From IMG/VR virus record IMGVR_UViG_3300033148_005555, positions 1-44,879 of that record: 44,879 bases of DNA, one strand, 5' to 3'. Under the pieces are notes generated by a model. It was given only the letters and a program-made list of their open reading frames with translations, was not told the DNA's origin and did no database searches. This DNA comes from a virus. Positions 784 through 28,712 of this stretch are shown piece after piece; the stretch's first letter is position 1; every line of letters begins with the position of its first letter. The position numbers and the translations under genes were made by a program.

Positions 784-2690
784 TGCACCTCCAATGACAC
801 CAGCCCCAGCTTCTGCGGCAGCATCGCCAGCGCCCAAGTGCCGTCGGGTTGCCAGGGCGCGAGGAGCTTGGCGTGCAATGGCGGCGATTGGCAGTGCGAT
901 TCCCAGCCGCTTACGCAAATGCCCCTGTAGTCCCAGTAGAGCCGCGCAATGCTGCGATAAGAGCACTGGGTCTCGGCGGCGCTGATGGCGCGGGAGTAGA
1001 TGGCGATGAGGGCTTGATCCATATTACCGTAGTAGTCGCCAGCACGACCAAGCCAAGGCTGACCTTTGGATAATTGAGAGTCAGCACTGTACGCTGTGTC
1101 AACAGTCAAGGGCGTACCGTCAAGGTAAAAGGCGGACTCTTCTATGTCCGTCTGCCCACTACCAGGAACTGTGACGGCTAAGACGTGCCAGGTTTCGGTC
1201 TCGATAGTCTCGGCAAAATAGCAATAGTTTTCGCTATTGAGATAGATTAGTGGCTTGCTCTGATTGCCCCAGTCGTTTGGTGACCTCGCGTAGACAGCCG
1301 GACGCGAATCTGTAGCGGACCAACTGATCACAGGCTCGCCATCTGTAGCGTCATGCATCCGTAGCACGGCAACGACAGTAAAAGCATCCGGCTTCAATGC
1401 GGACTCATCAGGCAAGGCAACGTAATCATCCACCCCATCAAACGTCGCCCCCTGCACCACGCTCTCCTCGGCCGGGTTGGTGTAGACGGTTGCGGTGGAG
1501 CCAATTTCGAGCTGGATGTCCGTGAATGTGATCGCGCCGAAGCCGCTGCTGTTCGGATCGCGCAAGCCAAGATTCCAGGCATTGCCGTCACCCGTGAATG
1601 TCGTGCTGTAGCGAGTCGGCGTAGCCGTCACGGTCAGATTGGCCGTGCTGCCGTCCTTAACCCACTGGAGCGATGTGTTTCCGGCGGAGCTGATAGTGGC
1701 CGAAAGAACGTAGTCCGCGCCGTCTGTCGTCGTGAAGCTCTGCACCACCTGCCCATTCTGAGCTGTTGGTGTGAAAGTGGTTGCGGTGGTGTTCGCGTCC
1801 GTCGCAGTCCAATTGCTGTCCGTCAGATCTTCCGTGCTCCCCGGTTCCAGGAGGTTCCGGCTGCTCGGCGTCAACTGCGGGTCGTTCGTGTCCTCAGCCT
1901 CATCATCAGAGCCGCGAGAGGCAGTGTTCCCGTTGCCCGACCAGTCATGGAAGGTTTGCTGGGCTTCGGTTTTTTGGTAGGCAGTGGCAGAGGTGCCGGG
2001 TTCGAGTTGCATTGCCGTAGCATAACCATCAATAGTCGTGCCGTCACCGGTCCATTCTGGATCGCCATCAGCCTCTGCAAAGGCCACGTGAACGCAACAC
2101 TCCGTATCTGAGCCAGCGAATGAAACAGCGATTCGGTACCAACCGCCCCCAAGAGACGATATCGTTGGGTTGCTGTGGTTAGATCCAGATGTTAGAACTT
2201 CGCCGTTTGTCAGATCAAAGTAAGTGGTATTTGAGTCAGTTGGACTGGTATCCTCACTAACCAGATAGGCAACGCTCTTGTCGGCAGCCTTGACATCGCA
2301 CGAGAGCGAGTAGACGACTCCTGAATCTCCACTGAAGCTCTGCTGAACCCTATGACTCTGCCCATCGGTAGTTGCCGCAAGCGCCCATACGGTAGCACCC
2401 CTTGGAGATGTCCCGCTTGCGTTGACAGTGGTACGGACTTTCAGCCACACCGAACTGTCAAACACCTCCGACCACCGCAGCAAATTCCGCCCCACCCAAA
2501 ACCACCGCGCACCGGGCACCAGCGTGGGGTCAGGGCCGAAGGTGTAGAGGGCGGCAGGGTTGGCGGGGAGGCCAAGAAACTGAGCCACGCCCTCACCGTG
2601 GTGGGTGGGTAACTCAAAACCACGGCGTACCTGTGCTACTAGAACCCATACCGTCGCCGTGATAGCCAACAATAAAAGGAACCGACGCAC
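780..2690 (-). CDS. Secreted or virion adhesin with repeat modules and LamG-like lectin domain
   Basis: A 636-residue modular protein. Residues 1-20 form a hydrophobic signal-like segment (RRFLLLLAITATVWVLVA). Two related beta-sandwich modules follow. Each opens with RNLL, continues with an S-x-W strand and ends with an I-x-LE-G-T-A-Y strand (about residues 68-240 and 280-408). This pattern is typical of carbohydrate-binding modules in phage tail and receptor-binding proteins. Residues 415-600 resemble a concanavalin/LamG domain (FDGVDDYV, then FTVVAVLRM). The start is a GTG preceded by GGAGGCG. Function is inferred as host-surface or glycan binding. The N-terminal hydrophobic segment is unusual for a plain tail fibre and could be an anchor. 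Confidence 0.65.
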   Translation of the reverse strand: MRRFLLLLAITATVWVLVAQVRRGFELPTHHGEGVAQFLGLPANPAALYTFGPDPTLVPGARWFWVGRNLLRWSEVFDSSVWLKVRTTVNASGTSPRGATVWALAATTDGQSHRVQQSFSGDSGVVYSLSCDVKAADKSVAYLVSEDTSPTDSNTTYFDLTNGEVLTSGSNHSNPTISSLGGGWYRIAVSFAGSDTECCVHVAFAEADGDPEWTGDGTTIDGYATAMQLEPGTSATAYQKTEAQQTFHDWSGNGNTASRGSDDEAEDTNDPQLTPSSRNLLEPGSTEDLTDSNWTATDANTTATTFTPTAQNGQVVQSFTTTDGADYVLSATISSAGNTSLQWVKDGSTANLTVTATPTRYSTTFTGDGNAWNLGLRDPNSSGFGAITFTDIQLEIGSTATVYTNPAEESVVQGATFDGVDDYVALPDESALKPDAFTVVAVLRMHDATDGEPVISWSATDSRPAVYARSPNDWGNQSKPLIYLNSENYCYFAETIETETWHVLAVTVPGSGQTDIEESAFYLDGTPLTVDTAYSADSQLSKGQPWLGRAGDYYGNMDQALIAIYSRAISAAETQCSYRSIARLYWDYRGICVSGWESHCQSPPLHAKLLAPWQPDGTWALAMLPQKLGLVSLEVQ

Positions 2691-2703
2691 ATTCGCCTCC
2701 TAC

Positions 2704-3057
2704 TCAAGGCCGTACTTCGGCCACCCAAACGACTCCATCTCCGTTTGTGGCGGCATCGACGTAGATTGCGCTCAAGTCGTAGGTATACCGTTTCTCGACC
2801 ACAGGGAATGTAATACTATCACCCGCAGCCAGCTGGACTCCTCTGGAACTGGAAACCGTACTGGCCCCGACGTAGACGTAACCTGTGTTGTCGGTCTTTG
2901 CCTGAACCGTGATCCAGACGGCGCGAACCGTGGAAGAGGTAAGCGCCTCGGCCGTACCAGCGGCACTCACATCCTTACTTCCGTCACGAATCCGGGCCAG
3001 TCCAATCGAGACCAGCGCCAAAGTCAATATACATAACAGCGAAACACGTTTCACCAT
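2704..3057 (-). CDS. Probable virion-associated beta protein with signal-like N-terminus
   Basis: A 117-residue protein with a hydrophobic N-terminal segment (residues 5-20) and a beta-rich remainder. That part (WITVQAK, YVYVG, GVQLAAGDSITFPV, LSAIYVDA, DGVVW) is the strand pattern of small decoration or fibre-accessory proteins in phages. A strong AGGAGG site sits eight bases before the ATG at 3057. It lies directly upstream of the adhesin gene in transcription order, so a role in the same host-facing structure is plausible. The exact family was not identified. Confidence 0.55.
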   Translation of the reverse strand: MVKRVSLLCILTLALVSIGLARIRDGSKDVSAAGTAEALTSSTVRAVWITVQAKTDNTGYVYVGASTVSSSRGVQLAAGDSITFPVVEKRYTYDLSAIYVDAATNGDGVVWVAEVRP

Positions 3058-3111
3058 AACCAGATCCTCCTAGTATCAAGTCTTCCGGGGCCGAGCGGGA
3101 TTGTCAGTGGA

Positions 3112-3306
3112 TTACAGATCATCGTCATCGTCAATCATCGCGTGGTATCGCGGGAACTTCGCCGAGTAGACGCGCTCCAAACGCACAGCCATCGCCCGTG
3201 GGCCGGGGTCCCATGGGCGGTTCTCGATGTAGTTATCCAGCCATGCGTCCCATCTACTCTGTACTTCGGGGCGTTGAAAACGGATTTCCGGTACGCGTGA
3301 CGCCAT
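3112..3306 (-). CDS. Hypothetical small acidic-tailed protein
   Basis: A 64-residue protein of unknown function, rich in Arg, Trp and Pro, ending in a run of aspartates (IDDDDDL). The ATG at 3306 follows one base after the stop of the methyltransferase gene, so it is probably translated by coupling. A longer open frame extends back into the methyltransferase gene but is likely fortuitous. Confidence 0.5.
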   Translation of the reverse strand: MASRVPEIRFQRPEVQSRWDAWLDNYIENRPWDPGPRAMAVRLERVYSAKFPRYHAMIDDDDDL

Positions 3307-3307
3307 C

Positions 3308-4240
3308 TTAGAACAGCCTCCGACAGCTGGGGCTGAACCAGATGCGCTCCTTAAACCGGTTGCTCTGGCTTCGAACATTGGGAGACTTGGCCATAGTTCC
3401 CCAGCCGCCGCCAGACGACCATTTATACACTTCCCAACTGTCCGGCATATCGTACTCGCCTTCGTACCCGCAAAGCGCAATACGCACATCTGGGTCATTC
3501 CCATTCTTCATACACCAATCGTAAACAGCGGGGCCTGGCTCATTATCGCTCTTGTCGCTCATGTATATCCCTACACAGCGTAATGACTTGTCGTAAGGCG
3601 GGTCCAAGAACACTCCTACCGGAGCAAGCTTCTCATCACCCGCCCGCTCAACACACCGCGACCAGTCTCCACAAAGCACTCGCGCCGGCTCCAACCGGTG
3701 CGACAGACGCTCCATAAACCGGACTACATCCTCCTGTCTACGGAAAACCTTGATCCCCCTTAGCATTGTAAGATCTGGCTGTTTTGTATGAAACTTGGCA
3801 CTACCGTAACCCCCAATAGAGGCTCCGATCAACAGGCATTGGCCCCAAACCCACCAGCCAGCAGACTTGACATCATAGAACTCCGGGTCTTGGAACATTC
3901 GTTCCCGGAAGCCGTCGGCTCGTTGTTTGGCCAAGTAGTTGTTGCGAGCGATGAAGTCGGCGAGGCTGGAAATATGGTACGCGTGATAAGCCACTTTGTC
4001 GGGCTCCGCGCGAACCGCGCGCCAAAAGTTCACAATCATACAATCAAGGTCGTTCAGCACAGCCGCCCTCAAAGCTTCCGGGTAGGGACAACTCAAATAG
4101 ACCGCTAGACTACCGCCAAACGGCTCCACGTAAGTTTTCACGCGCCCAAAGCGCTTCCACACCTCGTCAGCCACTCTCCACTTCCCGCCAATGTATGGAA
4201 ACGCGATAAGGCGATTATCAGAGTGTTGTTTCATGGGCAT
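3308..4240 (-). CDS. DNA adenine-N6 methyltransferase, Dam/D12 class
   Basis: A 310-residue protein of the D12 class of adenine methyltransferases, which transfer methyl from S-adenosylmethionine to N6 of adenine in DNA. The N-terminus carries the family start (FPYIGGKWRVAD) and the SAM-binding motif VEPFGGS at about residues 38-44. The catalytic DPPY lies near residue 217 (FLDPPYDKS). The target-recognition insert lies between them. Length fits the family. Two ATG codons, at 4240 and 4234, are possible starts. There is no matching restriction gene in the window, so it probably serves self-protection or regulation of phage DNA. It stands among late genes. Confidence 0.85.
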   Translation of the reverse strand: MPMKQHSDNRLIAFPYIGGKWRVADEVWKRFGRVKTYVEPFGGSLAVYLSCPYPEALRAAVLNDLDCMIVNFWRAVRAEPDKVAYHAYHISSLADFIARNNYLAKQRADGFRERMFQDPEFYDVKSAGWWVWGQCLLIGASIGGYGSAKFHTKQPDLTMLRGIKVFRRQEDVVRFMERLSHRLEPARVLCGDWSRCVERAGDEKLAPVGVFLDPPYDKSLRCVGIYMSDKSDNEPGPAVYDWCMKNGNDPDVRIALCGYEGEYDMPDSWEVYKWSSGGGWGTMAKSPNVRSQSNRFKERIWFSPSCRRLF

Positions 4241-11346: not shown

Positions 11347-11928
11347 TCAATAGTCGCGGACTTCCCAAAACAATGTATTCCACCCCAGGACACCCACACC
11401 AATTGGGTAGGTGCTAAGTTCCACGACCGCTTGTGGATAGTTGGACATTACTTCCTCTAATTTGTCCATACTGGGTGGATCGAGAAAGAACCGCAAGATC
11501 TCCAATGCACGTATCCCCCAAACGTGGTCCATCTGGTCGTAGGCCTGACGGATACCGACCCCACTAAACAGGGCATACCGCATTATTGGGTTTGGGATGT
11601 GGGAAGGCCCACCGGCGGTGACTTCCGCCTGGAGGCAAACTCGATGGTCTGGAGAACTTTCATCGGCCAACACTTCGTTGGGCGAGTACCCCCAGCGCAC
11701 TAATCGTTGGGCGTATTCCAAAGCCCGGTGGCCAGGCACACGATACCGCTGCCCGCGGCGATCACCCGGACGAACACAGCGAAATGACACCAATGGGGGC
11801 ATAGGATCAGGCGGGCGGCTCAAGAATTCCGACAGCCACCATTGGCGCAGCCGGTTACCGAAATCCAGCCGCAGCGAGCGCGCGTAGAACTCCCGCTTGT
11901 CCTTGATTCGACGCTGTACACAAATCAT
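11347..11928 (-). CDS. Conserved hypothetical protein of the nucleotide-metabolism cluster
   Basis: A 193-residue protein whose C-terminal pattern (DKLEEVMSNYPQAVVELSTY, then NTLFWEVRDY) matches a protein type I recall in other phages without a known function. The N-terminus is basic. GGGAGGTT stands six bases before the ATG at 11928. It overlaps the end of the HD-domain gene by 74 bases, which is long but common in this genome. Its position after hydroxymethylase-like and nucleotidase genes hints at nucleotide or DNA modification, but no catalytic motif is visible. Confidence 0.55.
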   Translation of the reverse strand: MICVQRRIKDKREFYARSLRLDFGNRLRQWWLSEFLSRPPDPMPPLVSFRCVRPGDRRGQRYRVPGHRALEYAQRLVRWGYSPNEVLADESSPDHRVCLQAEVTAGGPSHIPNPIMRYALFSGVGIRQAYDQMDHVWGIRALEILRFFLDPPSMDKLEEVMSNYPQAVVELSTYPIGVGVLGWNTLFWEVRDY

Positions 11929-12421
11929 GCCAAACCTCCCTCACGCTTTCGCCCAGCGACAAGTAGGGCTTGAGGTCTTCCTTCAACGTTTTCATCCAGT
12001 CTTCAGCGAACACATTTCCGCGTGACCGCTCAATCAACGCGTAGATGAACATTTCCATCAAATCGGCGCAATGAAGGTAGTCCTTTTCCACTGGGGACAA
12101 TTGTGGGAAAGAATCACAGCAGTTACTCAGCGCTTCTTGCTCCATCTGGTCCAAGACTGCTTGCGCCCCACGATTGTTCTCCTCCAAGCGCTTCTTGGTG
12201 GCGTAAGGGATGTCGCCTGTCTCCAACTCGCCCATATCGTGGAGGAGCGCAGCCTTCAGTATGCCCACCGTCATGAATTCCTCTGGTACAATCCGCAGAA
12301 GGATTAAGGCCACACCAAAACTGTGTTCAGCCACCGATTGGGGTGTAGTCGTCTCGGCGGTGTGCCAGCGCTTGACCCGCCCCGCCATAGACGCTCGAAT
12401 CAACTTTCCAGCTTCAATCAT
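11855..12421 (-). CDS. HD-domain 5'-deoxynucleotidase (YfbR-like)
   Basis: A 188-residue HD phosphohydrolase. The metal-binding residues are visible: His33 in AEHSFG, His61-Asp62 in LLHDMGE and Asp120 in HCADLME. The RW pair at residues 18-19 is typical of YfbR-type deoxynucleoside 5'-monophosphatases. Such enzymes remove phosphate from dNMPs. In phages with modified bases, they or relatives deplete the normal nucleotide pool. GGGAGAAG precedes the ATG at 12421, which overlaps the TGA of the thymidylate synthase-like gene. That coupling supports joint action on pyrimidine pools. Confidence 0.8.
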   Translation of the reverse strand: MIEAGKLIRASMAGRVKRWHTAETTTPQSVAEHSFGVALILLRIVPEEFMTVGILKAALLHDMGELETGDIPYATKKRLEENNRGAQAVLDQMEQEALSNCCDSFPQLSPVEKDYLHCADLMEMFIYALIERSRGNVFAEDWMKTLKEDLKPYLSLGESVREVWHDLCTASNQGQAGVLRALAAAGFR

Positions 12422-13476
12422 TTCTTCTCCCTTCGCTTTTGGCGTCGCTGCTCTATCCTACCCAACCACTGAAGGCAAGCATGTTTCCAGTCTACGTGAT
12501 CGCCCATCTTTCCCAAAGCGGCGCGCGCGGCTTCAAGATCGTTCGCCTTGTACGCCCACCAGGAATTCCACATAGGCGCAGCCACCCTGTTGAGTATGGG
12601 GTTTCGGTATGGGTAATTCCGAAAGTACTCATCGCCCGAGTTGTGAATCCAAACCGCAAGCTCACCATCAAACGAATCGAAGTCGCTTATCAACGGAACG
12701 CGCGTTAGCTTGCCACTAATATACAGATCCTCGCATGAGTTCGCTGCTCCAGATATGTAGCGGTCGGCAATGTCCTCGTAGAAGTGCCAACTATTGGACA
12801 CCTGGTACATCGTCCCCACGGGAACGCCCACGCCAGCTGCCACGTACTCCAACAGGTAACTCATATGCACAGCGTTTGCACCATACGCACCCCAGATAAC
12901 ATCGTTACTGCGGTTGCATATCGTCATGCTCAGCTCCAGTTGGCCCAATGGGCCTGTAGGCCGAAGGTAGAAGTACACGTTTGTGTTGCAGGGTAAGTCT
13001 TTGGCGTTCCACACTGGGTTTAAGTCGGATTCCGCGTCCCACATCTGTAAAACCACACGCCGGTCGTGCGGGCGTTCTTTAAGCATGTGTATCACGTGCC
13101 AAAGCTGATCGTGGTCGTTAGAGTGGCGGACTTTGAAGTGGCGTCTCCAGCGGTATCCGTAGGCGCCATGGAAGATGACTCCATCGTCGCTGTATTCCTT
13201 CATGCGGCTGTTGAAGTTCGAGATCCATTGGACGTCATGTCTTCCAGCCAGCATCCATAATGCCTCGAAGAAATGGAAGTATGGATTGCAGTGGCGGATT
13301 GGATCCCAGAGAATGCGCTCCAAGGGCCTCTCGTACACGGTAGTCACAGGGCAAGGTGCCTCCCAAACGGCACCATTGCGCGAGGGCCTCTGGATTAAAT
13401 GGTGCTCTCGTTCTCGCCAATAGTGCTTGGCCCTTTCCCAAGCACCGTTCACGTTTCGTTCTTTGATAGTCCACAT
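12418..13476 (-). CDS. Thymidylate synthase / dUMP hydroxymethylase family enzyme
   Basis: A 352-residue member of the thymidylate synthase superfamily. The catalytic cysteine is Cys163 (DLPCNTNVYF). The RSND motif at residues 189-192 and the HFYEDI region fit the fold. The substrate-binding loop reads WGAYGAN where true ThyA has LGxPFN, so the specificity Asn is shifted by one. This loop type occurs in phage enzymes that hydroxymethylate rather than methylate deoxypyrimidines. The neighbours favour 5-hydroxymethyl-dUMP synthesis, but ordinary dTMP synthesis cannot be excluded. A TGTATAATAG box lies ten bases upstream of the ATG. Confidence 0.75.
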   Translation of the reverse strand: MWTIKERNVNGAWERAKHYWREREHHLIQRPSRNGAVWEAPCPVTTVYERPLERILWDPIRHCNPYFHFFEALWMLAGRHDVQWISNFNSRMKEYSDDGVIFHGAYGYRWRRHFKVRHSNDHDQLWHVIHMLKERPHDRRVVLQMWDAESDLNPVWNAKDLPCNTNVYFYLRPTGPLGQLELSMTICNRSNDVIWGAYGANAVHMSYLLEYVAAGVGVPVGTMYQVSNSWHFYEDIADRYISGAANSCEDLYISGKLTRVPLISDFDSFDGELAVWIHNSGDEYFRNYPYRNPILNRVAAPMWNSWWAYKANDLEAARAALGKMGDHVDWKHACLQWLGRIEQRRQKRREKK

Positions 13477-13485
13477 AGCTATGTC

Positions 13486-13495
13486 CTATTATACA
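13486..13495 (-). promoter_or_regulatory. TGTATAATAG box before thymidylate synthase-like gene
   Basis: A perfect copy of the genome's TGTATAATAG box, reading leftward, only nine bases from the start codon. The transcript leader would be nearly absent. It separates the nucleotide genes from the PLP and radical SAM genes upstream. Confidence 0.6.
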
Positions 13496-13497
13496 GT

Positions 13498-14316
13498 TCA
13501 AGCTCCGATGTTCCAAAATAGAACAGGTGCGCGCAACTCCTTCAAGTTCTCCACCAACCAAACCCATGTCTTCAAGTCATAGTACGCATTGCAAGGAAAT
13601 GGAGGGGCTGGACCCGGGCGCGCCTTGTCGGAGTAGGCGTATCCCTCATCCACGATTCTCACAAGTTCTCTCAACTCGTCTGGAGGCAGCGTGATCCATT
13701 TCGACAGCAGACTATACACAGTACGCTTTGACCTAGAATACCCCATATGAAGAATGAACCTCGGAAGCCTGCGTATTCTCCTTTCAAGAAAAGCCTTCCA
13801 AAAGCCCATAAGAACCCCAGTAGCTATTGTTCCCGATGATATAGGGACTACGACGGTTTTGTACTTACCGATCTCGGTCCGACAAACTTCGTCCGCCGTC
13901 TCAGTTACCGATTCAGGAATCTGTATCGCATTGGGGACCATGTATGCTCCTTCGGGCAAGTCCCGTCTCGCCCTATGATAAAGTATTGATGACCGCCCAG
14001 CAGTAAGTGGCCTGAGTTCAGCCCCCAACTGTTTAGCGCGAAACTGGGATGGGCGAAGGGTTCCCTCAGTGTCCGCCTTCAGTCGAGGGTAATACACGAT
14101 GCACTTCTTCCCGAGCGTTTCACACGCTGCTGCGACTGCCCAACCCGCTTGGGAGTGAACTGTATCCAAGACGCCAATTACGGGCTCCTGGCGCTTCCGT
14201 ATGTGAGCCAACACACCACGAGCTTTACTGAATTTTGGGCCACCGATACAGCAGAGGTCCTCTCGCTTTACGTACATTCCATGGTATTCTTTCACGGGAG
14301 TCGATTTCAACCTCAT
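13498..14316 (-). CDS. PLP-dependent enzyme, ACC deaminase/D-cysteine desulfhydrase-like (copy 1)
   Basis: A 272-residue fold-type-II PLP enzyme, related to ACC deaminase, D-cysteine desulfhydrase and the tryptophan synthase beta family. The N-terminus has the family signature YVKREDLCC followed by GPKFSKARG, where the first Lys aligns with the Schiff-base lysine. The phosphate-binding loop is PISSGTIATG. The start at 14316 follows the stop of copy 2 closely and has GGAG upstream. A longer frame is possible but overlaps copy 2. It is about 50 residues shorter than bacterial relatives. Copies 1 and 2 share their plan and the exact end VLFWNIGA. It probably acts on amino-acid-like groups, perhaps on DNA bases. 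Confidence 0.7.
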   Translation of the reverse strand: MRLKSTPVKEYHGMYVKREDLCCIGGPKFSKARGVLAHIRKRQEPVIGVLDTVHSQAGWAVAAACETLGKKCIVYYPRLKADTEGTLRPSQFRAKQLGAELRPLTAGRSSILYHRARRDLPEGAYMVPNAIQIPESVTETADEVCRTEIGKYKTVVVPISSGTIATGVLMGFWKAFLERRIRRLPRFILHMGYSRSKRTVYSLLSKWITLPPDELRELVRIVDEGYAYSDKARPGPAPPFPCNAYYDLKTWVWLVENLKELRAPVLFWNIGA

Positions 14317-14320
14317 AGAA

Positions 14321-15061
14321 TCACGCTCCAATATTCCAGAACAAAACTTTGCCGCGAAGCTGGTCTCTATTTTCAACCAACCACTTCCATGCTTTTGCCT
14401 CATAATAGGGCGACGCGGGGAATGGAACTCTAATACGAGATTGATCGTCGTACTGGTAACCCAAATCTACGTACTTCAACCAGAACGTTGGGCGAACGTA
14501 ACGCGAGTATCCCAAAACCCCATACACGCGTTCCCTTTGAACTACCCTCATCAACCCGGCCAAGTGAACTCCAACGCCCACAGGAACCACCAAAACGTCT
14601 GGGCGTCCCCAACGGTCCAGCGTCTTCTGGTATTGCTCGGCAACTTCCAAACGCGTCTCTTCCAACCGGAAACCAGCGGGCATAAAATAACAAGACTTAA
14701 ACTCATCCTTCGCATGAGCAGTCATTATCGCCTGACGCGTCGCCATTGTAGGCCAAAGATCTGCCCCAAACTCCTTCTTTGCACGCATTTGTTGGGGCGG
14801 GATTGTCTTCTGGCCCTTGTACGTTGGATACACTATGGTACAACGGATCTTCAACTCGTTACAGCAAATCGCGGTAACCAACCCATTCAATGATCTGAAC
14901 GTATCCACACAAACAACATGACGTGGCCGCGGGTTCATACCCTTCAGGTGTCTCCAAGCGCCACGAATCTTGGACAATTTCACCATGTCGCAGCAAAGAT
15001 CTTCTCGCTTCACCCAAACCCCATCGTACTTCTCCACAGGCGTGTAGTCCAACAGCTTCAT
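14321..15061 (-). CDS. PLP-dependent enzyme, ACC deaminase/D-cysteine desulfhydrase-like (copy 2)
   Basis: A 246-residue paralog of the next gene. It starts MKLLDYTPVEKYDGVWVKRE and has the Schiff-base region VKLSKIRG. The phosphate loop VPVGVGVHLAG is altered from the usual Gly/Ser-rich form. It ends with VLFWNIGA, like copy 1. The ATG at 15061 is one base after the radical SAM stop, so translation is coupled to it. Two diverged tandem copies suggest a heteromer or two successive reactions. Neighbours suggest DNA base hypermodification, but amino-acid catabolism is an alternative. Confidence 0.7.
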   Translation of the reverse strand: MKLLDYTPVEKYDGVWVKREDLCCDMVKLSKIRGAWRHLKGMNPRPRHVVCVDTFRSLNGLVTAICCNELKIRCTIVYPTYKGQKTIPPQQMRAKKEFGADLWPTMATRQAIMTAHAKDEFKSCYFMPAGFRLEETRLEVAEQYQKTLDRWGRPDVLVVPVGVGVHLAGLMRVVQRERVYGVLGYSRYVRPTFWLKYVDLGYQYDDQSRIRVPFPASPYYEAKAWKWLVENRDQLRGKVLFWNIGA

Positions 15062-15062
15062 C

Positions 15063-17636
15063 TCAGAACAGTTTTGAGCGCCTTGCATCCACAGTCTTAA
15101 CGCATGGGACTCCAGGGTCAACATCCCGATCATACACGCTGTACTTGAAGTCGCCCATCCGCAACGCCTTCGCCGCCCCGAACAGCTTACTCCCACAGCG
15201 CCCGCGGCATTCCGGGTCACCATCGGCGCACCGCAAACATCCGCTTGGAGGGCATTCCTTGACTTCGCGGAACGGCTTGCCCAAGCTGGTCCTAGTAAAC
15301 ATGGGAACTCGTTTGCCGTGGCACTGGTCGGACGTCATGTAAAGTGGATTCATACTTACGCCACGGCTGATCATGCCTCCCGTAACCGGGTCATACACCT
15401 TCTCGTACTCGTAACACAGCGCCATCGTGACCTTAGCCTTCTTGCACTCCGCCTGAAATCTGTCCAAGGCGTGCTTGCGATAGCTCAGGTCTATGGTGGT
15501 TTGGCTCCCCACTGTGTAGTTTAACACAGACTGTAGCTCATCGGCTGCGTCTCGGCCAAATCTGCCAGCTACTTTGTGGATTAGAGCACTCTTCCAGCTA
15601 TGAGCTACCTCCACGAACTTGAAGATGCAGTGGTTTGCGCCAGCTTTCGACAACTTCCAAATCAGCTCCACGATATCATCTACGGAAACGACTCCAGGTA
15701 CAATGGGGTTAATCTGAATGGACACGTAAATCCCCGCCTTGTGGAGTGATTCTACCTGATCAATCAGATCTGACAAGTCTGGAGCCCAAGGCGATAGCCT
15801 CCGCCAACGCTTCTCATCAGGGCAGTTGATCGACATCTGAGCGTAGCTGTACGGGTTGCGCCGCAATAAGTCGTATGCCCAGTCCGGGTAGATCATCCGT
15901 GACAGAAAGAAGATGGGAAGTCCGGCACCCACAAACACCTCAGCCGCCTGCTGTGTATTGTGGTAGATGTCTTCCAGCGGAAGGAATGGTTCCGTGAAAC
16001 TGCTGAAGTATCCGGCGGCAGCCGTTTTCATCTGTGATAGCGACTTCCTCACGAACTCTCCATAATTGCGTGGTACCGTCGTTATCCCTTGACCACGGTA
16101 TCCACGAGTCCCGGAATTGACGTAACAGTTGTGTACAAGCACCCCGTCTGCGCAGAAGTTCTCCGTATCAGTTTGAACGTCATACACAACTACGCTTCCA
16201 CGGACTACTTGCTTGCGGATGACCGTAGTATACCTTTCTGTTCCAGCACCTTCCGATCCCAAAGCTCTACTGGGTACCTGCGCTGAAAACGCTCGAACCG
16301 CTCCTTGCTCTGAAGAGAGAAATAACCTTTCACCTCTATAAACTTGTGCGAATCCGGGAGCCAAAAATCCGGTATGTACGTTTCGTCGCCCAGTACTAGC
16401 GTTACAGGTTCGTATTCCCAACGCAAACCCTCTTTGTCCAAGTATTCTGCCACCAATCGTTCCCACTCCGAACGCATGTGGATACCTTTGTACACACCGC
16501 GTTTGGATGAACGGTACCCCATTCTGCCCAAGCGCATGCGCTCGCTCATCTTCAGCTTCCACTTCAAAGACTTCGGCCGCCCCACCGCAGGATTCCGACG
16601 TTTCAAGAACGCCTCCCTCATTCGCGCACGAGTCTCCGGCGACCTTTTGATGCCCTTCAGTTTGCAGGCATTCTTGTTCCCTCTGGAAATCAAACTGCAA
16701 TGGATTCTGAAACAATCGTCGCAAAGTTTGCGGCGTCTGGGTATCGGGGAAGAGCACATACGGCAAGACCCCAGTGGCTTCTTCCCGCGCTGGTTTCCCA
16801 ACATGGCTTCGGATATCTCCTTCATACGAGATTTGTTGCACTGTCTGCAGTACTTGGCGTACTGAGTAGGTACCGGGCGAACACCACAAATTGCGCACAA
16901 AGGCATCACTGTAGGCGGTTCTGGCAAACCTTTGTTCCTGAACTCCATGCGCTGAGAACGCCGCCAATTTGAACAGTGTTCGCAATACAGCGCCCGATCC
17001 GACAACGTAGGACGCTCTTTGCAGATTCCGCAGATCCTTCTCAGTTCCAATAGTCTCGACCTCCTCTCCAATCTTTAGTTGCCCGGCAGGGACCCAACCT
17101 CTGATCCTAGAATATATCAGGTGGTCTGGCGTAAGCCTCAAACGGCGACCATCAGCCAGCTCCAGTACCAAAGTCCGTCTGACCACGCGGCTCAAGCAGC
17201 CCATAACCTTGGCCGGTCGCCAACCGCTAACATTACGGCCCCACACGGTATCGCCCACTCGCAAAGACTGTATCGGAACCCAACCATCTGGCGTAGCCAC
17301 ACGTGTACCCCCAACCATGCAAAACATGCAGCGAACTGGGCATGTTCCGCCGTAAGGCTGAGTAAGCACCGCCTCGGTTTCACAAGGTCTCGGCCTCACG
17401 TTGTTCGGCTCGTACTTGCCCTTGTACCATCCTTGAAGAGGCTTTGCATTATCGACAATTGTGTGAGGCGTCGGGTCTAAGTACACCTTCACTCGTTTCC
17501 GGTTCTCCGAGCCGCGCAGCATGGTAACATACCAATACTGGTACCGGAACCCAGTTTCCTCATCCAACTCTACTGGGCCTTCCGTTTGTCTTGGCTCAGT
17601 CCTCATGAAGTATTTGTATTTTGTGGTTTTTGGCAT
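15063..17636 (-). CDS. Radical SAM enzyme (SPL/COG1533-like) interrupted by an intein
   Basis: The 857-codon frame encodes a radical SAM enzyme of about 459 residues split by a 398-codon intein. The mature cluster motif CPVRCMF-C is formed only after splicing: the third cysteine is the first residue after the intein. The N-extein has 105 residues. The C-extein continues GTRGYRG, SSFTEPFLPLED, ISIQINPIVPGV-like strands and a Cys-rich end (CPPSGCLRCADGDPECRGRC) that may bind a second Fe-S cluster. It resembles the spore photoproduct lyase/DNA repair photolyase group. AAAGGAG precedes the ATG at 17636. Its neighbours suggest modification of DNA bases, but repair is possible. Confidence 0.8.
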   Translation of the reverse strand: MPKTTKYKYFMRTEPRQTEGPVELDEETGFRYQYWYVTMLRGSENRKRVKVYLDPTPHTIVDNAKPLQGWYKGKYEPNNVRPRPCETEAVLTQPYGGTCPVRCMFCMVGGTRVATPDGWVPIQSLRVGDTVWGRNVSGWRPAKVMGCLSRVVRRTLVLELADGRRLRLTPDHLIYSRIRGWVPAGQLKIGEEVETIGTEKDLRNLQRASYVVGSGAVLRTLFKLAAFSAHGVQEQRFARTAYSDAFVRNLWCSPGTYSVRQVLQTVQQISYEGDIRSHVGKPAREEATGVLPYVLFPDTQTPQTLRRLFQNPLQFDFQREQECLQTEGHQKVAGDSCANEGGVLETSESCGGAAEVFEVEAEDERAHALGQNGVPFIQTRCVQRYPHAFGVGTIGGRILGQRGFALGIRTCNASTGRRNVHTGFLAPGFAQVYRGERLFLSSEQGAVRAFSAQVPSRALGSEGAGTERYTTVIRKQVVRGSVVVYDVQTDTENFCADGVLVHNCYVNSGTRGYRGQGITTVPRNYGEFVRKSLSQMKTAAAGYFSSFTEPFLPLEDIYHNTQQAAEVFVGAGLPIFFLSRMIYPDWAYDLLRRNPYSYAQMSINCPDEKRWRRLSPWAPDLSDLIDQVESLHKAGIYVSIQINPIVPGVVSVDDIVELIWKLSKAGANHCIFKFVEVAHSWKSALIHKVAGRFGRDAADELQSVLNYTVGSQTTIDLSYRKHALDRFQAECKKAKVTMALCYEYEKVYDPVTGGMISRGVSMNPLYMTSDQCHGKRVPMFTRTSLGKPFREVKECPPSGCLRCADGDPECRGRCGSKLFGAAKALRMGDFKYSVYDRDVDPGVPCVKTVDARRSKLF
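16205..17050 (-). CDS. Homing endonuclease nested out of frame inside the intein
   Basis: A 281-residue protein read in the +1 frame relative to the intein, wholly inside it. Three CxxC-x12-15-CxxC zinc units (CGICKERP...CEHC, CAICGVRP...CRQC, CRMCSSP...CDDC) fill the N-terminal 110 residues. NUMOD3-like basic repeats follow (GIKRSPETRARMREAF, SLKWKLKMSERMRLGR). The end is a PD-(D/E)XK nuclease domain (SEWERLVAEYL, YIPDFWLPD, FIEVKG). Such enzymes spread introns and inteins by cutting empty alleles. The start is the TTG at 17050, nine bases after an AGGAGG site. This frame, not the intein frame, carries the protein-like signal. Confidence 0.85.
   Translation of the reverse strand: MELRRICGICKERPTLSDRALYCEHCSNWRRSQRMEFRNKGLPEPPTVMPLCAICGVRPVPTQYAKYCRQCNKSRMKEISEAMLGNQRGKKPLGSCRMCSSPIPRRRKLCDDCFRIHCSLISRGNKNACKLKGIKRSPETRARMREAFLKRRNPAVGRPKSLKWKLKMSERMRLGRMGYRSSKRGVYKGIHMRSEWERLVAEYLDKEGLRWEYEPVTLVLGDETYIPDFWLPDSHKFIEVKGYFSLQSKERFERFQRRYPVELWDRKVLEQKGILRSSASK
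17059..17065 (-). promoter_or_regulatory. Internal Shine-Dalgarno AGGAGGT for the nested endonuclease
   Basis: A seven-base perfect anti-16S match inside intein coding sequence (it encodes part of GEEVE in the intein frame). Nine bases separate AGGAGG from the TTG at 17050. This supports independent initiation of the nested gene rather than frameshifting. Confidence 0.75.
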
Positions 17637-17655
17637 TGTTAACTCCTTTGGAATC

Positions 17656-18702
17656 CTACCAAATCATCCTAACCTTCGCACGACGCTGCGACTCCTCCAA
17701 GGCTCTCAAGTATTTCGGAACCACCTCTTGCGGGCTATGGCTCCCCAATGTCCTCTGGTACCCATCTAAAAGCTGAGACCGCAAAGAGTTGGCGTAATCG
17801 GGATCTTCGTAGCAATGCTTCAACAGCTTGGCCAACTCTACCGCGTTTCCAACAACAATGCAATTGACCCCGGGAATCATCTCATCGTCAGGTAGAATCC
17901 AGTCACGGTGGATCACCAAAATGCAACCTGCGTCCATCGCCTCCAAAAACGTGTATTGGGTTCCACCGCCATCGTCCCTGATCTTAGACATGTCTACCGA
18001 GATTTTGTATGAGGAACAAATCTTCACACCTTCTTCCAATCTGGGAGGGAAATTCCCGGAACTCTGCTGGTACTCTGGGTACTTGGGAATAAGTACACGC
18101 TTGCTCCAAAGCCGCTGGTCGAAACCGCGAATATGAATCCGTGCCGCGTCTGGAAGCAAACGATTTGCATCCAATAAAATGTATGTTCGTTTGTCTGAAT
18201 CGACTCGTGCTGTGGAAACCGCCAAGTGGGGCCTTGTACGGAGATCACTAACTCTCTTGTTAAATGGGACATATGGATGAGGGACTATTGTGGAAGCCGG
18301 GAGGATTCTCTTCATAGCCTTTCGAATCCCAATAACCCGGCTAATGTACTTTTCCACAATCGTGCGCGCAGTCCGGGAGGACTTTAACTCCTCAGGATCA
18401 TGGATCACCAAAGCAGCCCCAGCACGAATAAGATTCAGAACTCTGGGCCACATCCGGGCGTGTACCGCTGTTATCAAACTCCATGTTGGATTCTCAGATA
18501 TAATTTGGACAGCGTGATCAAGACTGACTACGGACGCAGCCACGCCAAAGAACTTTGTTGGCCGCCCATCAGTCTTGGATTGCGGGCGTACCAAGTACAG
18601 TGCTGCTCCGTTCCCAAACGACCTAGCCAGGTGAGCTGTGTACGTCGACCAACCGCCTTTCAGGTTCGAGGGGCTCACATAGAATAAATTCACTCCAGGC
18701 AT
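17656..18702 (-). CDS. GT-B glycosyltransferase (GT4-like)
   Basis: A 348-residue glycosyltransferase of the GT-B fold. The N-terminal domain has NLFYVSPSNLKGGWSTYTAH, the usual Gly-rich entry loop. The C-terminal nucleotide-sugar site is GGGTQYTFLEAMDAGCILV, then NCIVVGNAVELAKLL, matching the E(x7)E-type region of group 1 transferases. It lies between the pyrophosphorylase-like gene (nine bases upstream) and the radical SAM gene. No surface-polysaccharide genes are nearby, so transfer of a sugar to modified DNA bases is a reasonable inference. Glycosylation of a virion or host molecule is an alternative. Confidence 0.75.
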   Translation of the reverse strand: MPGVNLFYVSPSNLKGGWSTYTAHLARSFGNGAALYLVRPQSKTDGRPTKFFGVAASVVSLDHAVQIISENPTWSLITAVHARMWPRVLNLIRAGAALVIHDPEELKSSRTARTIVEKYISRVIGIRKAMKRILPASTIVPHPYVPFNKRVSDLRTRPHLAVSTARVDSDKRTYILLDANRLLPDAARIHIRGFDQRLWSKRVLIPKYPEYQQSSGNFPPRLEEGVKICSSYKISVDMSKIRDDGGGTQYTFLEAMDAGCILVIHRDWILPDDEMIPGVNCIVVGNAVELAKLLKHCYEDPDYANSLRSQLLDGYQRTLGSHSPQEVVPKYLRALEESQRRAKVRMIW

Positions 18703-18711
18703 CCCAACCGT

Positions 18712-19641
18712 CTACCAACCATACAATGAGTACTTGTACCGAGATCGCAAATTTCCTTCACCCAACTTCGCTCTGAGGTATTTGTCAGTCTCGCAAAGGC
18801 TGTGCTCGATGTCCCGCAGCTCCAGCTTCGGAACCCAGGCAGGGAGCGCGCGGCGAGACAGCGAAAGCAAGTGCCGCATCTCCACCAGAGCGAGGTCATC
18901 TTGAAGACTCCGTTTCACGGGAACCCCCGCCAAGCGGTTCAACCCGCGTTTTGCGCCTGGGCCCGCATTCGCCCAAGTGTTTATGTCCTTCGCGTTACAC
19001 AAGTATCGTGTATGGCGAAGGTCCGTTGCTACCTCGTAAGCCAAGAATCCACCCCATCCCTCGAATCCCATCAGATATTCCGTCCAACCTTGTATGGTGT
19101 CCGGCCCGTCTTTCCCAAACTTCACGCCACAATCGCGCTGAAACTGTCGATACAGCGGATCGAGGACACCGAACACGGTGTAATGCACCTTGGGGACGAA
19201 GCCCTTGCCGAATTTGTGCCCCGTATCGCCACGTAGCATGTACGCGCCGGTGTAGACCTTCAGCCCACGTGCCCTACGCGATTCCAGGACATCGTAGACT
19301 TCACGAGGGTCCCAACGGTGAGGAAGCGTTGTTTCATCGAATAATTCATACAGAGTTGGAGGCCAGTTTATCTGGCGGGCAATACAGAGGAGAAACCACA
19401 AATTACGGTGATGGTGCCAGCGCTCGCGTATGTTTTCCCGAATCCAAATGGTTACGCGATCCAGTTCCCGGAACACATTACAGAAGCGGTAGTCCCGCAG
19501 AATGGGGTCACACGTCCATTCAGCCTGAGGTCGTTTCTCCACAAACCTGCGTATGTAAATGCGGTGGCGCTCACGTATCCAATACCACAAAGGAGCTGGA
19601 TCCAACCGCCTCGGCTTCAGATCGCTCGTGTTCTTATTCAT
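18712..19641 (-). CDS. Alpha-glutamyl/putrescinyl-thymine pyrophosphorylase-like protein
   Basis: A 309-residue helical protein. The diagnostic stretch is DYRFCNVFRELDRVTIWI at about residues 45-62, followed by LYELFDE and GKVHYTVFG-like segments. This matches what I recall of the aGPT-PPlase/5-hmdU-kinase helical family. Those enzymes act on pyrophosphorylated 5-hydroxymethyl-dU in DNA and replace PPi with an amine or amino acid. No P-loop is present, so it is not the kinase itself. The ATG at 19641 is chosen because it is preceded by a TGTATAATTG box. It is the first gene of the leftward modification operon. Confidence 0.65.
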   Translation of the reverse strand: MNKNTSDLKPRRLDPAPLWYWIRERHRIYIRRFVEKRPQAEWTCDPILRDYRFCNVFRELDRVTIWIRENIRERWHHHRNLWFLLCIARQINWPPTLYELFDETTLPHRWDPREVYDVLESRRARGLKVYTGAYMLRGDTGHKFGKGFVPKVHYTVFGVLDPLYRQFQRDCGVKFGKDGPDTIQGWTEYLMGFEGWGGFLAYEVATDLRHTRYLCNAKDINTWANAGPGAKRGLNRLAGVPVKRSLQDDLALVEMRHLLSLSRRALPAWVPKLELRDIEHSLCETDKYLRAKLGEGNLRSRYKYSLYGW

Positions 19642-19652
19642 CACTATCATTC

Positions 19653-19662
19653 CAATTATACA
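19653..19662 (-). promoter_or_regulatory. TGTATAATAG-like box (TGTATAATTG) of the modification operon
   Basis: A leftward box eleven bases from the ATG at 19641, on the left edge of the divergent region. It would start the pyrophosphorylase, glycosyltransferase, radical SAM and PLP genes. Confidence 0.55.
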
Positions 19663-19797
19663 AGGAATCAACATGGAAAGTAAACACGAGGCCGGTTCTA
19701 GCCAATCAACCCCCAAGTTAACCCCCAACTCAACCACGAACCCAGCCAATTCCCAAGTCAAGCCCCAAGCGCAGGCCAGTTAATTTCACCCGGTTGC

Positions 19798-24943: not shown

Positions 24944-26013
24944 AGATCCAAAACAATGAACTAGACTCTGTCCTGAAGTTGATGGACTGTATCCCAGACA
25001 ATTCGAGCGTAGCCACCCCAACAGCCGGAAACGCGCAGTTGGGGTTTGGGGATGGAAGAATGACAATTTGTGTAGCGGGAGTGGGTGCCGCCCATTCAAG
25101 TGTGAAGGTTTCTGAGCTTCCGAAAAGCCCAGTAGCTCCAATAGCGGTGAGCCGGAAGCATCTATCCGCGATGATCCGCGCGGCCAAAGATTGTGGTGAA
25201 CCCCAATCGACGTGGGCGATAAAGGACGCCCAGGTTACTGTGACGTTCGGGAGCCGCAGATTCAACTTTAGCGCAGTGGAGCCTACCGGATACCCGGAGC
25301 CCCCAAAACTCGAAGGTAAGACGTATAAGCTGGACGCCGAGTGGATCCGTGATTTTGGGTTGATGCGAAACTACATTAGCCCATCGGTGGAGGACGTCAA
25401 CGCCATCGTGTGCAACCGGAAGACCATGGTTGCCTCGGATTATTTTCAACTGGCGCTCGTGGAGTACAGAAGCATCAATCTTCCGTCATTGGTAATACCC
25501 GGCCCACTGGTCAACGTCCTGATCGGCTACGGTGAATCCGATAACCCGCCAGCCCTGTACGTCCAGAAGGACACTATGGTGCTGGACGTGCCGAAACTGG
25601 GGACCCTAGTGTATCCGAAGGCCACATCATACCCAATTGCGCGGTTAAAGAAGGTCATCACGGAATGCAAGGCCGTTAAGCCATCCATCTACGTGAAGAG
25701 TTCGGAGTTGTTGGGGGCGTTGAGAACGCTGAACACGTTTGTGTTCGATTCCATAGCGTCAGAGATAGCCGTAGACGTTGGGGGTAACTCCATAAGTTTT
25801 GAGATGGCTCTGCAATCTGGGAACGTTTCATCCAAATGCAGAGCCAAATGTAACGCAAAGCCAAAAGGAAAGTGGTTTCTGCGGTCGCTTTTGAAGTGGC
25901 TTGAATATGTGGCTCCGTATGATGTAGATGTAATGATCGGAGTCAGCAACAAGGTGTGGAAATTCCAAGCTGAGTTGAACGACAGAACCTTCTGGATGGT
26001 GATTCCCGCGTGA
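24940..26013 (+). CDS. DNA polymerase sliding clamp (beta/PCNA-like)
   Basis: A 357-residue protein with the length and repeated strand-helix-strand layout of a bacterial beta clamp, read from three similar segments. The segments carry clamp-like pieces such as ISRKHLSAMIRAAKDCGEP-type (residues 67-85) and KSSELLGALRTLNTFV (about residue 250). No strong motif exists in this family, so the call leans on length, pattern and context. Polymerase, clamp loader and SSB all follow. It ends in a GTGA overlap with the polymerase gene. Confidence 0.65.
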   Translation: MKIQNNELDSVLKLMDCIPDNSSVATPTAGNAQLGFGDGRMTICVAGVGAAHSSVKVSELPKSPVAPIAVSRKHLSAMIRAAKDCGEPQSTWAIKDAQVTVTFGSRRFNFSAVEPTGYPEPPKLEGKTYKLDAEWIRDFGLMRNYISPSVEDVNAIVCNRKTMVASDYFQLALVEYRSINLPSLVIPGPLVNVLIGYGESDNPPALYVQKDTMVLDVPKLGTLVYPKATSYPIARLKKVITECKAVKPSIYVKSSELLGALRTLNTFVFDSIASEIAVDVGGNSISFEMALQSGNVSSKCRAKCNAKPKGKWFLRSLLKWLEYVAPYDVDVMIGVSNKVWKFQAELNDRTFWMVIPA

Positions 26014-28712
26014 AAAGAGATCTATTTGGGCGTGTAGTAAGTTCGTTATCCAAACCGCGTTCACGCAATTCAGCGTTCGGACCACGCGGATGCCGAAACT
26101 GCACACTGCGAGGAAAGTCCCGACGGATATTGGGTTCCGTGAATGGAAAACGCGTCCTTGTTTGGGGGATGGCTCCGGGGCTGGACGAGGACAAAGAGGG
26201 CATGGAGTTTGTCGGGAAAAGCGGGAAGCTTCTTTGGACCGCTTTCCAGGAGGTTGGTCTATCCCGAGAGGACGTGGATACCCAGAATGTGGTTCGCTGT
26301 TGCCCCAAGGAAGGCGGACGTCTGAGAGACCCTACTGAGAAGGAAATCTACTGCTGCAGCTATTACAATGAGCGTGCTATCCAAGCAGCCTACGGGAAGG
26401 CAGCAGTACACTTGGTGTTGGGCAACACGGCAGCGTACTCGCTGTTTGGACAAAAGGGTTCATCGTCTTCGGTTCGTTGGGATGAGGGCTTGAACGCCTA
26501 TGTGGTGTTTGCCCGACACCCATCGTACCTTTGCAGAATCGGGGCAACACCAAGATCCCAACATCGTGAGTGGTACGCTTTCATCGACCGACTGCGTGCG
26601 GTCAAAACCATGATGGAGCACCCTGGGCGGTGGGGGTATCTGAGATCACTTGACTACAAAGCGTTGACCACCATCGATGGCGTGAACCGGGAGTTGAAGC
26701 CCGTGCTGAAGGCGGCGGCAGCGAGCGGTAAGCGAATTGCGTGTGATATCGAAGACGAACCCGACCCCAATGGCGGGAGACGGATAATTATGGTTGGTTT
26801 CGCGTGGGGTTCGGGGAAGCCGGGTCAATGCTCCAGCTGGAATGGAGGAGCAAGGACTATAGTTCTACACCACCCAGGGGTTGATGGCGACCCACGACGT
26901 GTAGAGAAGTTGAAACGTGTTCTGCGGTCTATAATGAAGTCCGCGAAGGTGAGAAAGGTTTTCCAGCATGGGAGTTATGATGTCACAAGGCTGGAGGAGT
27001 ACTTGGGCGTGAAAATCAATGGCTACGACTACGACAGCCAGTACGCCATGTACCTTCGCTACCCATACCTTCGCAGCGTGAGCCTTGAGACAATCGCAAC
27101 GCTGTTCTTTCCAGAGTTCGCCGATTACAAACAGATCATGAGGCCGTACTACCCCAATCTATCCCAAGCACCACTGGATGACCTCGTTCTGTACAATTGC
27201 GCAGACGCCGACCTAACGAAGCGTGTGGAGTCGAAGACAGCGGATTCGATATCACTACCGCTTCTTCAAACATACATATGGGCTGCTTTCACGTTGGAGC
27301 GTATGGAGGAACGTGGGCCCATACTCGATGAAGAGCTTGCGGAAAACTTACAGAAAGACGTGTCCACCTTGCGAGAGAAGATCCTCAACCGCATCCACCA
27401 AATACCGGGATTGGAACGACTGGATCCATCGAAGCAGGCCCAAGTAGCGGCCGCATTGTACGACAAGATGGGGTACCCGCAACTCCAAGGCAGGTCCACA
27501 GATAAACAGGTATTGGAGATACTGGCAAACGAGTATCATCGAAAGAATCCATTTCCGAGACTTGTGATGGCGTACCGGAAACTGGATAAGATGGAGAACA
27601 CCTATTTGGTGGGGTACCGAGCCAGTGCGCGAAAGAACGGCGGAGAGGTCAGAACGATATGGTGGCTCACGGGCGCAATCACCGGCCGGCTTCGCAGTGG
27701 TCGTGGTGACTCAGCCGAGAAGGAAGGTGTGGTCAATCTCCAGAACATCCACGGCAACCCAACACTGAAGAACATTCTGGTCTCAACTCCAAACTGGAGA
27801 AAAGCCATAAATATCAGCAGCGAGGAAGTATTGGACCTTCCTGTGTTCCTGCAACTGGACTACTCTCAAGCTGAACTTCGGATGTTGGCCGAGATGTCTC
27901 AGGACAAACGTCTGTTGAGCCAGTTTATGAGTGGTGTAGATATCCACTGCCAGGTGGGACACGAGCTTACGGGTTGGCCGGTAGAACGAATTGCTAACGA
28001 CCAGAAGACCAGACGTGCGGTTAAGAACTTCCATTTTGGAATCGTGTTTGGACTGAGCCCGCAAGGCGGAAGCGCATACATGAGAGCACGCGGAATTAAG
28101 ATGTCTGAAGCGCAGTTCGCTCGATTCCTGGACAGATACTTCCAGCGGTACCCAGGCGTAAAACGGTACATGAACGAGCAGCGCCGTAAGGCAGCATCGA
28201 AAGGTTACGTCGAAACATTATTCAAATTTCGGCGTCCCATCTACGAGGATGACAACCGGTCAACCCACGCCGGAAACCAAGCAATAAACAGCCCCATACA
28301 AGGATCTGCGCACCAACTCTTGTTGATTGCGTTAGCGATGTTGCACGCTTACAAGGATCGCTACCCACTCCTCCAGGAGCCCATGATGGAAGTCCACGAT
28401 GCACTATATTTCTTGGTTCGGCTGCGTGATCTTCCAGAGGCGTATAAACAGTCAAAGAGACTGTTGGAGAAGGACGTGGTGAAGTATACTTATCAAATGT
28501 GGGGCTACGGGCTTAGGGTTCCCTTAGTAGCGGAGGCCCAGTTCGGTCTCACGTTGGGCACTCAAGTTGACTACCACGGAGAGGATCCACAAGAGTGCCT
28601 GTCAAAATGGAGGGACAAGTACCAGAACCTGATGAAGGATTCCAAACTACTCGATGATGACACGTACCAACTTTTGGGTGGCTATAAATCCTTCATCAAG
28701 CATCCTGTATAA
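26010..28712 (+). CDS. Fused uracil-DNA glycosylase (family 4), 3'-5' exonuclease and family A DNA polymerase
   Basis: A 900-residue replicative polymerase. Residues 25-190 are a family 4 UDG with the Fe-S cysteines C28, C31, C97/98 and C115/116, GMAPG (usually GEAPG), FVGKSG and HPSYL. Residues 235-420 are a DnaQ-like proofreading domain with D246/E248, D324, Y395 and D399. Residues 430-900 are PolA. Motif A is LDYSQAELR (D616). The O helix is RRAVKNFHFGIVFG, with Phe at the 762 position and Phe at 766. Motif C is VHDALYF, where the usual Glu is Ala. The start is GTG, coupled to the clamp gene. Confidence 0.9.
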   Translation: MKRDLFGRVVSSLSKPRSRNSAFGPRGCRNCTLRGKSRRILGSVNGKRVLVWGMAPGLDEDKEGMEFVGKSGKLLWTAFQEVGLSREDVDTQNVVRCCPKEGGRLRDPTEKEIYCCSYYNERAIQAAYGKAAVHLVLGNTAAYSLFGQKGSSSSVRWDEGLNAYVVFARHPSYLCRIGATPRSQHREWYAFIDRLRAVKTMMEHPGRWGYLRSLDYKALTTIDGVNRELKPVLKAAAASGKRIACDIEDEPDPNGGRRIIMVGFAWGSGKPGQCSSWNGGARTIVLHHPGVDGDPRRVEKLKRVLRSIMKSAKVRKVFQHGSYDVTRLEEYLGVKINGYDYDSQYAMYLRYPYLRSVSLETIATLFFPEFADYKQIMRPYYPNLSQAPLDDLVLYNCADADLTKRVESKTADSISLPLLQTYIWAAFTLERMEERGPILDEELAENLQKDVSTLREKILNRIHQIPGLERLDPSKQAQVAAALYDKMGYPQLQGRSTDKQVLEILANEYHRKNPFPRLVMAYRKLDKMENTYLVGYRASARKNGGEVRTIWWLTGAITGRLRSGRGDSAEKEGVVNLQNIHGNPTLKNILVSTPNWRKAINISSEEVLDLPVFLQLDYSQAELRMLAEMSQDKRLLSQFMSGVDIHCQVGHELTGWPVERIANDQKTRRAVKNFHFGIVFGLSPQGGSAYMRARGIKMSEAQFARFLDRYFQRYPGVKRYMNEQRRKAASKGYVETLFKFRRPIYEDDNRSTHAGNQAINSPIQGSAHQLLLIALAMLHAYKDRYPLLQEPMMEVHDALYFLVRLRDLPEAYKQSKRLLEKDVVKYTYQMWGYGLRVPLVAEAQFGLTLGTQVDYHGEDPQECLSKWRDKYQNLMKDSKLLDDDTYQLLGGYKSFIKHPV

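Follow-up and report, generated by a model that had tools for sequence, protein, structure and literature searches.

The stretch analysed here, called the window, comprises all 44,879 nucleotides of IMG/VR virus record IMGVR_UViG_3300033148_005555 (positions 1 to 44,879), and its minus strand carries an intein that shares its DNA with a nuclease gene read in a different frame. A preliminary description made from the letters alone had proposed an endonuclease nested out of frame within the intein, and this arrangement is borne out: the intein blocks lie in one frame and a nuclease of 281 residues lies in the +1 frame. The host gene is a single open reading frame (ORF) of 857 codons without internal stops (15063..17636, minus strand), encoding a radical-SAM protein of the YuA gp12/phrog_9252 family together with the intein. 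Its outer parts match phrog_9252 (6e-147), a phage radical-SAM family annotated as "DNA repair photolyase" whose members include gp12 of Pseudomonas phage YuA and its homologue in phage M6. Removal of residues 106-503 leaves 459 residues, the predicted spliced extein, which align over their full length with proteins of YuA, Rhizobium and Bordetella phages at 50-53% identity. The same alignment shows that the removal restores the conserved radical-SAM C...C.FCY motif, the intein being inserted at the CxxxCxxC motif of the phage protein.

The intein occupies 16128..17321 on the minus strand, as do all features of the element described below, and comprises 398 residues from C1 (17321) to N398 (16128), followed by the +1 Cys (16125-16127). 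By sequence, block A corresponds to residues 1-13 (CMVGGTRVATPDG; 17283..17321), the block B region to residues 61-74 with LTPDHLIYS and its TxxH (17100..17141), block F to residues 377-392 (VVYDVQTDTENF; 16146..16193), and block G to residues 393-398, which end in VLVHN with the His-Asn pair (16128..16145). All four blocks share a single frame as part of the continuous 857-codon ORF. The Pfam Intein_splicing model aligns with residues 46-398 across the long middle at E=4.5e-6, with a score under Pfam's own cut-off, while NCBIfam intein end models match both ends, the C-terminal one at 3.5e-4 and over its cut-off in the host protein. When the two splicing halves are joined without the middle, they match the structure of the NrdJ-1 intein (E=1e-6). 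By every sequence test the insert is a class-1-type intein, and cis-splicing is predicted. Between the splicing blocks, profile searches of the intein frame found no endonuclease family and no recognised domain, as the preliminary description had held for nuclease motifs, so this is not a large intein with an in-frame endonuclease. Split inteins and fractured genes have their N and C parts on separate ORFs, whereas the window intein is continuous. Judged from its sequence, the element is therefore an intein, yet neither a canonical endonuclease-domain intein nor a split one. A promoter search inside the intein gave nothing above chance.

The nested nuclease ORF (16205..17050) runs in the +1 frame from TTG 17050 to TAG 16205, with its 281 codons at 17050-16208. 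As had been noted, the TTG follows an AGGAGGT, here a predicted ribosome-binding site (17059..17065) encoded by the GEEV codons that close the N-splicing subdomain, and the spacing between this site (17065-17059) and the TTG is 8 nt. Within the intein the gene extends from residue 91, past block B, to a stop at residue 373, immediately ahead of block F; the proposal that its ends overlap the splicing parts thus holds only marginally. Three double-CxxC zinc units (C7/C10/C23/C26, C52/C55/C69/C72 and C96/C99/C110/C113; 16712..17032) are separated by a basic middle from a T7-endonuclease-I-like catalytic core, identified by profile and structure matches (residues 183-281; 16208..16504). The nuclease matches phrog_9019, a family of phage Holliday-junction resolvases (2.1e-15), as well as Pfam Phage_endo_I (PF05367; 1.1e-4, under the curated cut-off at 22.3 vs 29.1 bits) and structures of T7 endonuclease I (2.8e-4), with E197, D228, E239 and K241 aligned to the T7 active-site positions. 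On these matches the nested ORF is a T7 endonuclease I-like PD-(D/E)XK nuclease with its predicted catalytic residues intact. Of the features claimed earlier, the zinc units and the PD-(D/E)XK core stand; for the NUMOD3-like repeats there is a likeness by eye only, Pfam NUMOD3 giving no match at E<=1 in the nested nuclease. The nuclease frame does have homologues, among them a free-standing gene of Agrobacterium phage OLIVR4 that likewise combines zinc, linker and core. A genome scan for relatives of the element turned up nothing beyond other PD-(D/E)XK-like proteins, none of them in inteins, and close relatives of the whole element amount to one contig in the collections searched.

The portion of the intein frame overprinted by the nuclease (16207..17048) is a linker with no stops and no recognised domain. 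Both frames do stay open for about 280 codons, as first described, although the earlier estimate of some ten chance stops was too low, about 16 being expected: synonymous shuffles of the nuclease give means of 16.4-16.6 stops in the intein frame with its own codon usage and 16.0 with phage usage, and the lowest count in 5000 shuffles was 5-7. The third frame over the same region has 15 stops, and none of 2923 windows of 280 codons from other phage genes is open in the corresponding relative frame. In this relation of frames, a nuclease codon ending in T before AA, AG or GA creates a stop in the intein frame. T-ending codons are absent from the 78 critical positions and account for 55 of the 202 elsewhere (Fisher 1.8e-9); likewise, two-fold pyrimidine codons are 0T/19C at critical positions and 17T/15C elsewhere (4e-5). 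C takes most of the places left by T (41% at critical codons, 16% elsewhere), so the bias is not one of general GC enrichment; the G+C content of the dual-coding region is 53%. Given the nuclease protein, the composition of the linker matches that of synonymous recodings, so that, slight proline depletion aside, stop avoidance is the only compositional constraint seen. The overlap is not due to chance; selection holds both readings open, the intein frame actively so. In a screen of 63 Chloroflexota inteins for long alternative frames, none of the candidates read had the nested layout, and the six longest or most unusual frames were rejected as junk rich in R, P and G, mostly from GC-rich coding; an open second frame alone is therefore no evidence. 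One of the six inteins read (L185) contains an HNH-like sequence, in frame.

A second contig (L002), from a named metagenome assembly, differs from the window by 17 single-nucleotide polymorphisms (SNPs) and no indels over 6688 bases; both frames stay open there and remain apart. Three of the SNPs fall within the overlap, all of which alter the nuclease protein and two of which also alter the linker. Separately, nine of the 17 SNPs cluster within 73 bases (window 11704-11776), which suggests local recombination.

The preliminary description had suggested looking for alleles of the host gene that lack the intein. By extein alignment, 80 loci were collected from IMG/VR, in addition to isolate phages; every locus readable across the site (about 80), the near-identical copy excepted, is free of an intein at exactly this point. 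The radical-SAM genes of Pseudomonas phage EKU1 (L009) and phage ERS-1 (L012) at first looked interrupted; they appear to contain many frameshifts and no intein, and the records look error-rich.

The layout is not confined to the window, and elsewhere it comes with nuclease families unrelated to that of the nested gene. Among the eight phage inteins most similar to the window intein, two contain an out-of-frame nuclease, and the nucleases found there served as queries in follow-up searches. The terminase intein of Tetrasphaera phage TJE1 (L193, 2501-3454) holds an HNH_3 gene (3e-14), and the helicase intein of Vibrio phage 1.088.O holds a DUF559/Vsr-like gene (6e-12), both over the Pfam cut-off. 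DUF559 nucleases are nested in helicase inteins at nine loci (L194 at 2501-3568, L201-L206, L225 and L226), the Pfam DUF559 match being about 1e-11 in the four that were scanned. This group spans phages of Vibrio, Pseudomonas (MR14) and Corynebacterium (phi673), and Vibrio phage CP-T1 also matches with the same DUF559-type gene. At all nine loci the intein frame has no stops where 4.6-14.6 are expected (P0 <= 0.0025 each). Within the group, third positions of nuclease codons diverge most (0.63 vs 0.48 and 0.44), which marks the nuclease frame as the one under constraint, and linker identity is below nuclease identity; because some pairs in the pooled alignment are poorly aligned, these identities are approximate. 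Six of the nine loci have a GAGG, contributed by conserved Asp-Glu-Val codons, shortly upstream of an ATG, comparable to the AGGAGG that Glu-Glu-Val codons supply in the window.

HNH_3 nucleases form the other group, nested in terminase-type inteins at L193, L210, L212, L217, L218, L220 and L228 with matches from 1e-9 to 7e-17. The hosts include a Rhodobacteraceae phage with a terminase-type intein, and in L223 an HNH_3 gene is nested in a further host gene. The telling point for this group is that the nuclease profile and the intein and host profiles lie in different frames of the same bases. Isolate records of inteins with nested nucleases mostly annotate the host protein alone. The terminase of L210 (528-3191) contains two Hint regions (residues 51-121 and 546-855), with a nested HNH in the second only. 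A further HNH relative, L208 (2394-3215), has a second frame open for 274 codons, in which intein blocks and a host domain were not recognised.

Terminase genes also provide fractured arrangements of the same HNH family. In Lactobacillus phage CL2 (L224, 506-2700), the N-half of the intein ends in a stop and is followed by an HNH gene and by the C-half in another frame; Brochothrix phage BL3 (L227, 481-2300) appears to be arranged in the same way, its HNH being decayed. Vibrio phage 1.245.O (L229, 661-4389) has the HNH between the intein halves, with the C-half annotated as a gene of its own. The 1.245.O terminase has a second, contiguous intein as well. Nested and fractured states thus coexist for one HNH family in terminase genes. 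Since a single stop in the linker splits a contiguous intein into halves, the nested layout could pass into fractured genes; the contiguous intein with a nested nuclease is plausibly their counterpart or forerunner, the direction of change being a matter of interpretation.

Both frames, the intein blocks, the nuclease family with its catalytic residues, the intein-free alleles and the stop avoidance are established, and from this anatomy, together with knowledge of the families concerned, we infer splicing, internal initiation, cleavage and homing. Very probably, the intein undergoes cis-splicing around an open linker that carries no meaning of its own, and homing is driven by a free nuclease translated from an internal ribosome site. 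Ribosomes starting at the host ATG would read through to give an 857-residue precursor, whose Hint halves would fold around the linker of about 280 residues and excise the intein in cis, leaving the radical-SAM CxxxCxxC motif whole again. Other ribosomes would initiate at TTG 17050 on the same mRNA via the AGGAGGT and produce a free zinc-finger/T7-endonuclease-I-like nuclease. In co-infecting phages that lack the intein, this enzyme would cut the allele at the radical-SAM motif, whereupon repair would copy the intein in. The intein frame would be purged of stops because any stop would destroy the host protein.

Several observations weigh against cis-splicing combined with a free homing nuclease. 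The nested gene starts with TTG, AlphaFold modelling of either protein from its single sequence yielded nothing of use (predicted local distance difference test scores of 38 and 32), and the collections searched hold just one close relative of the element. In the HNH group few stops are expected in the intein frame (0.3-2.6; single-locus P0 0.02-0.71), which makes openness weak locus by locus, and these loci were singled out partly for being open. The alteration of the nuclease protein by all three overlap SNPs is a further point, one that speaks for relaxed constraint and hence for a nuclease frame that is the relic of an inactive gene in a region persisting merely as an open linker. Homing nucleases often decay after fixation, and the TTG start is in keeping with such decay; nonetheless, the ORF is full-length, its zinc pairs and catalytic residues are intact, the ribosome site is kept, and conservation in the helicase relatives is higher in the nuclease frame than in the intein frame, so that a relic is unlikely.

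Since translation of the host ORF runs through the region and the two frames overlap, programmed ribosomal frameshifting could instead fuse the nuclease to the N-half of the intein, dispensing with internal initiation. Upstream of the TTG, however, the nuclease frame is open only as far as a TAA at 17077-17075, which leaves some 25 bases for a shift, and inspection by eye revealed no slippery heptamer in them. The strong, well-spaced Shine-Dalgarno sequence before the start and the GAGG before an ATG in six of nine helicase loci also count against frameshifting, which we regard as quite improbable. Slightly less credible still is a functional protein domain in the place of the spacer: although the linker is kept open under selection, it has no family match in profile searches, its composition is that of synonymous recodings apart from the slight depletion of proline, and in the helicase group its identity falls below that of the nuclease. 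Inteins usually have their nuclease in frame, which makes it natural to ask whether sequencing or assembly indels displaced such a domain. The gap-free second assembly with its frames apart makes a single-base error unlikely, two compensating indels and the absence of T at 78 critical codons cannot arise from errors, and isolate as well as metagenome phages share the layout; the probability of this explanation is negligible.

Compared with canonical large inteins, which carry LAGLIDADG or HNH domains in frame, the window element shares blocks A, B, F and G, insertion at a catalytic motif and a nuclease located between the N and C splicing subdomains. It differs in that the nuclease occupies another frame with its own start and stop, while the intein frame supplies an anonymous linker. 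Fractured genes, reportedly described by Dassa et al. in 2009 in Nucleic Acids Research (NAR), are said to be split inteins whose two halves flank a free-standing EDxHD/Vsr-like endonuclease. They resemble the present element in having a free nuclease gene at the intein endonuclease/split site, and the Vsr-like class recurs in the helicase relatives; in the window, however, the N and C intein parts form one continuous ORF, which the nuclease overlaps and does not separate. The fold of T7 endonuclease I and phage Holliday-junction resolvases (PF05367, phrog_9019) agrees in core sequence and in the E/D/E/K residues, whereas the window core is fused to N-terminal zinc units and its use would be in homing. 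The ShiLan domain and the Pacc40 insertion are out-of-frame HNH genes in phage methylases (PMC11855218, Genes 2025). Like the window element, ShiLan is a homing-type nuclease out of frame in an insertion that is open in the host frame; unlike the window insertion, with its intein blocks and AGGAGGT site, it has neither a splicing domain nor a detectable ribosome-binding site (PMC11855218). Its openness was weakly significant in the stop test run here (2.3 stops expected, P0=0.0185).

A literature search found no paper on the nested layout in inteins within the texts covered, which did not include Dassa 2009 or a 2025 preprint, cited in PMC11855218, on actinobacteriophage inteins with "non-canonical architecture" and overlapping reading frames. 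Inteins of the nested layout may be described in that preprint, pre-empting part of the novelty. In broader terms, we see about an even chance that overprinting gives phage inteins a third, general route to carrying a free nuclease, one that would have arisen independently with at least three nuclease families, would use the end of the N-subdomain as a ribosome site in two, and would mark the evolutionary transition to fractured genes and to split inteins of natural origin. Splicing and homing, fused in usual inteins, are here separated yet kept on the same bases, and the region provides a case of long dual-frame coding under measurable selection, with 16 stops expected and none present at 53% G+C. 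With this layout, the entry of homing endonucleases into inteins becomes a testable question, as does the origin of natural split inteins whose halves enclose a free nuclease. Furthermore, surveys of inteins in the host frame alone overlook nested nucleases and wrongly class the inteins concerned as large ones without a nuclease.

An Rfam scan of the window at the gathering threshold matched no family, a group I intron being rejected accordingly, and a search for transfer RNAs found none. Around the host gene lies a minus-strand cassette (11855-19761) that combines the radical-SAM gene with genes for a thymidylate-synthase homologue, two PALP-type pyridoxal phosphate (PLP) enzymes, a glycosyltransferase-like protein, an HD phosphohydrolase and a protein with the helical domain of 5-hydroxymethyldeoxyuridine (5-hmdU) DNA kinase (PF18723, 7e-47). 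The gene set next to the radical-SAM gene is presumably that of thymine hypermodification, with which the cassette is consistent. A similar cassette flanks the same radical-SAM gene in Pseudomonas phage EKU1. Elsewhere in the window, a single plus-strand ORF (26010-28712) encodes both a uracil-DNA-glycosylase-like domain (7e-19) and a family A DNA polymerase (1.8e-67).
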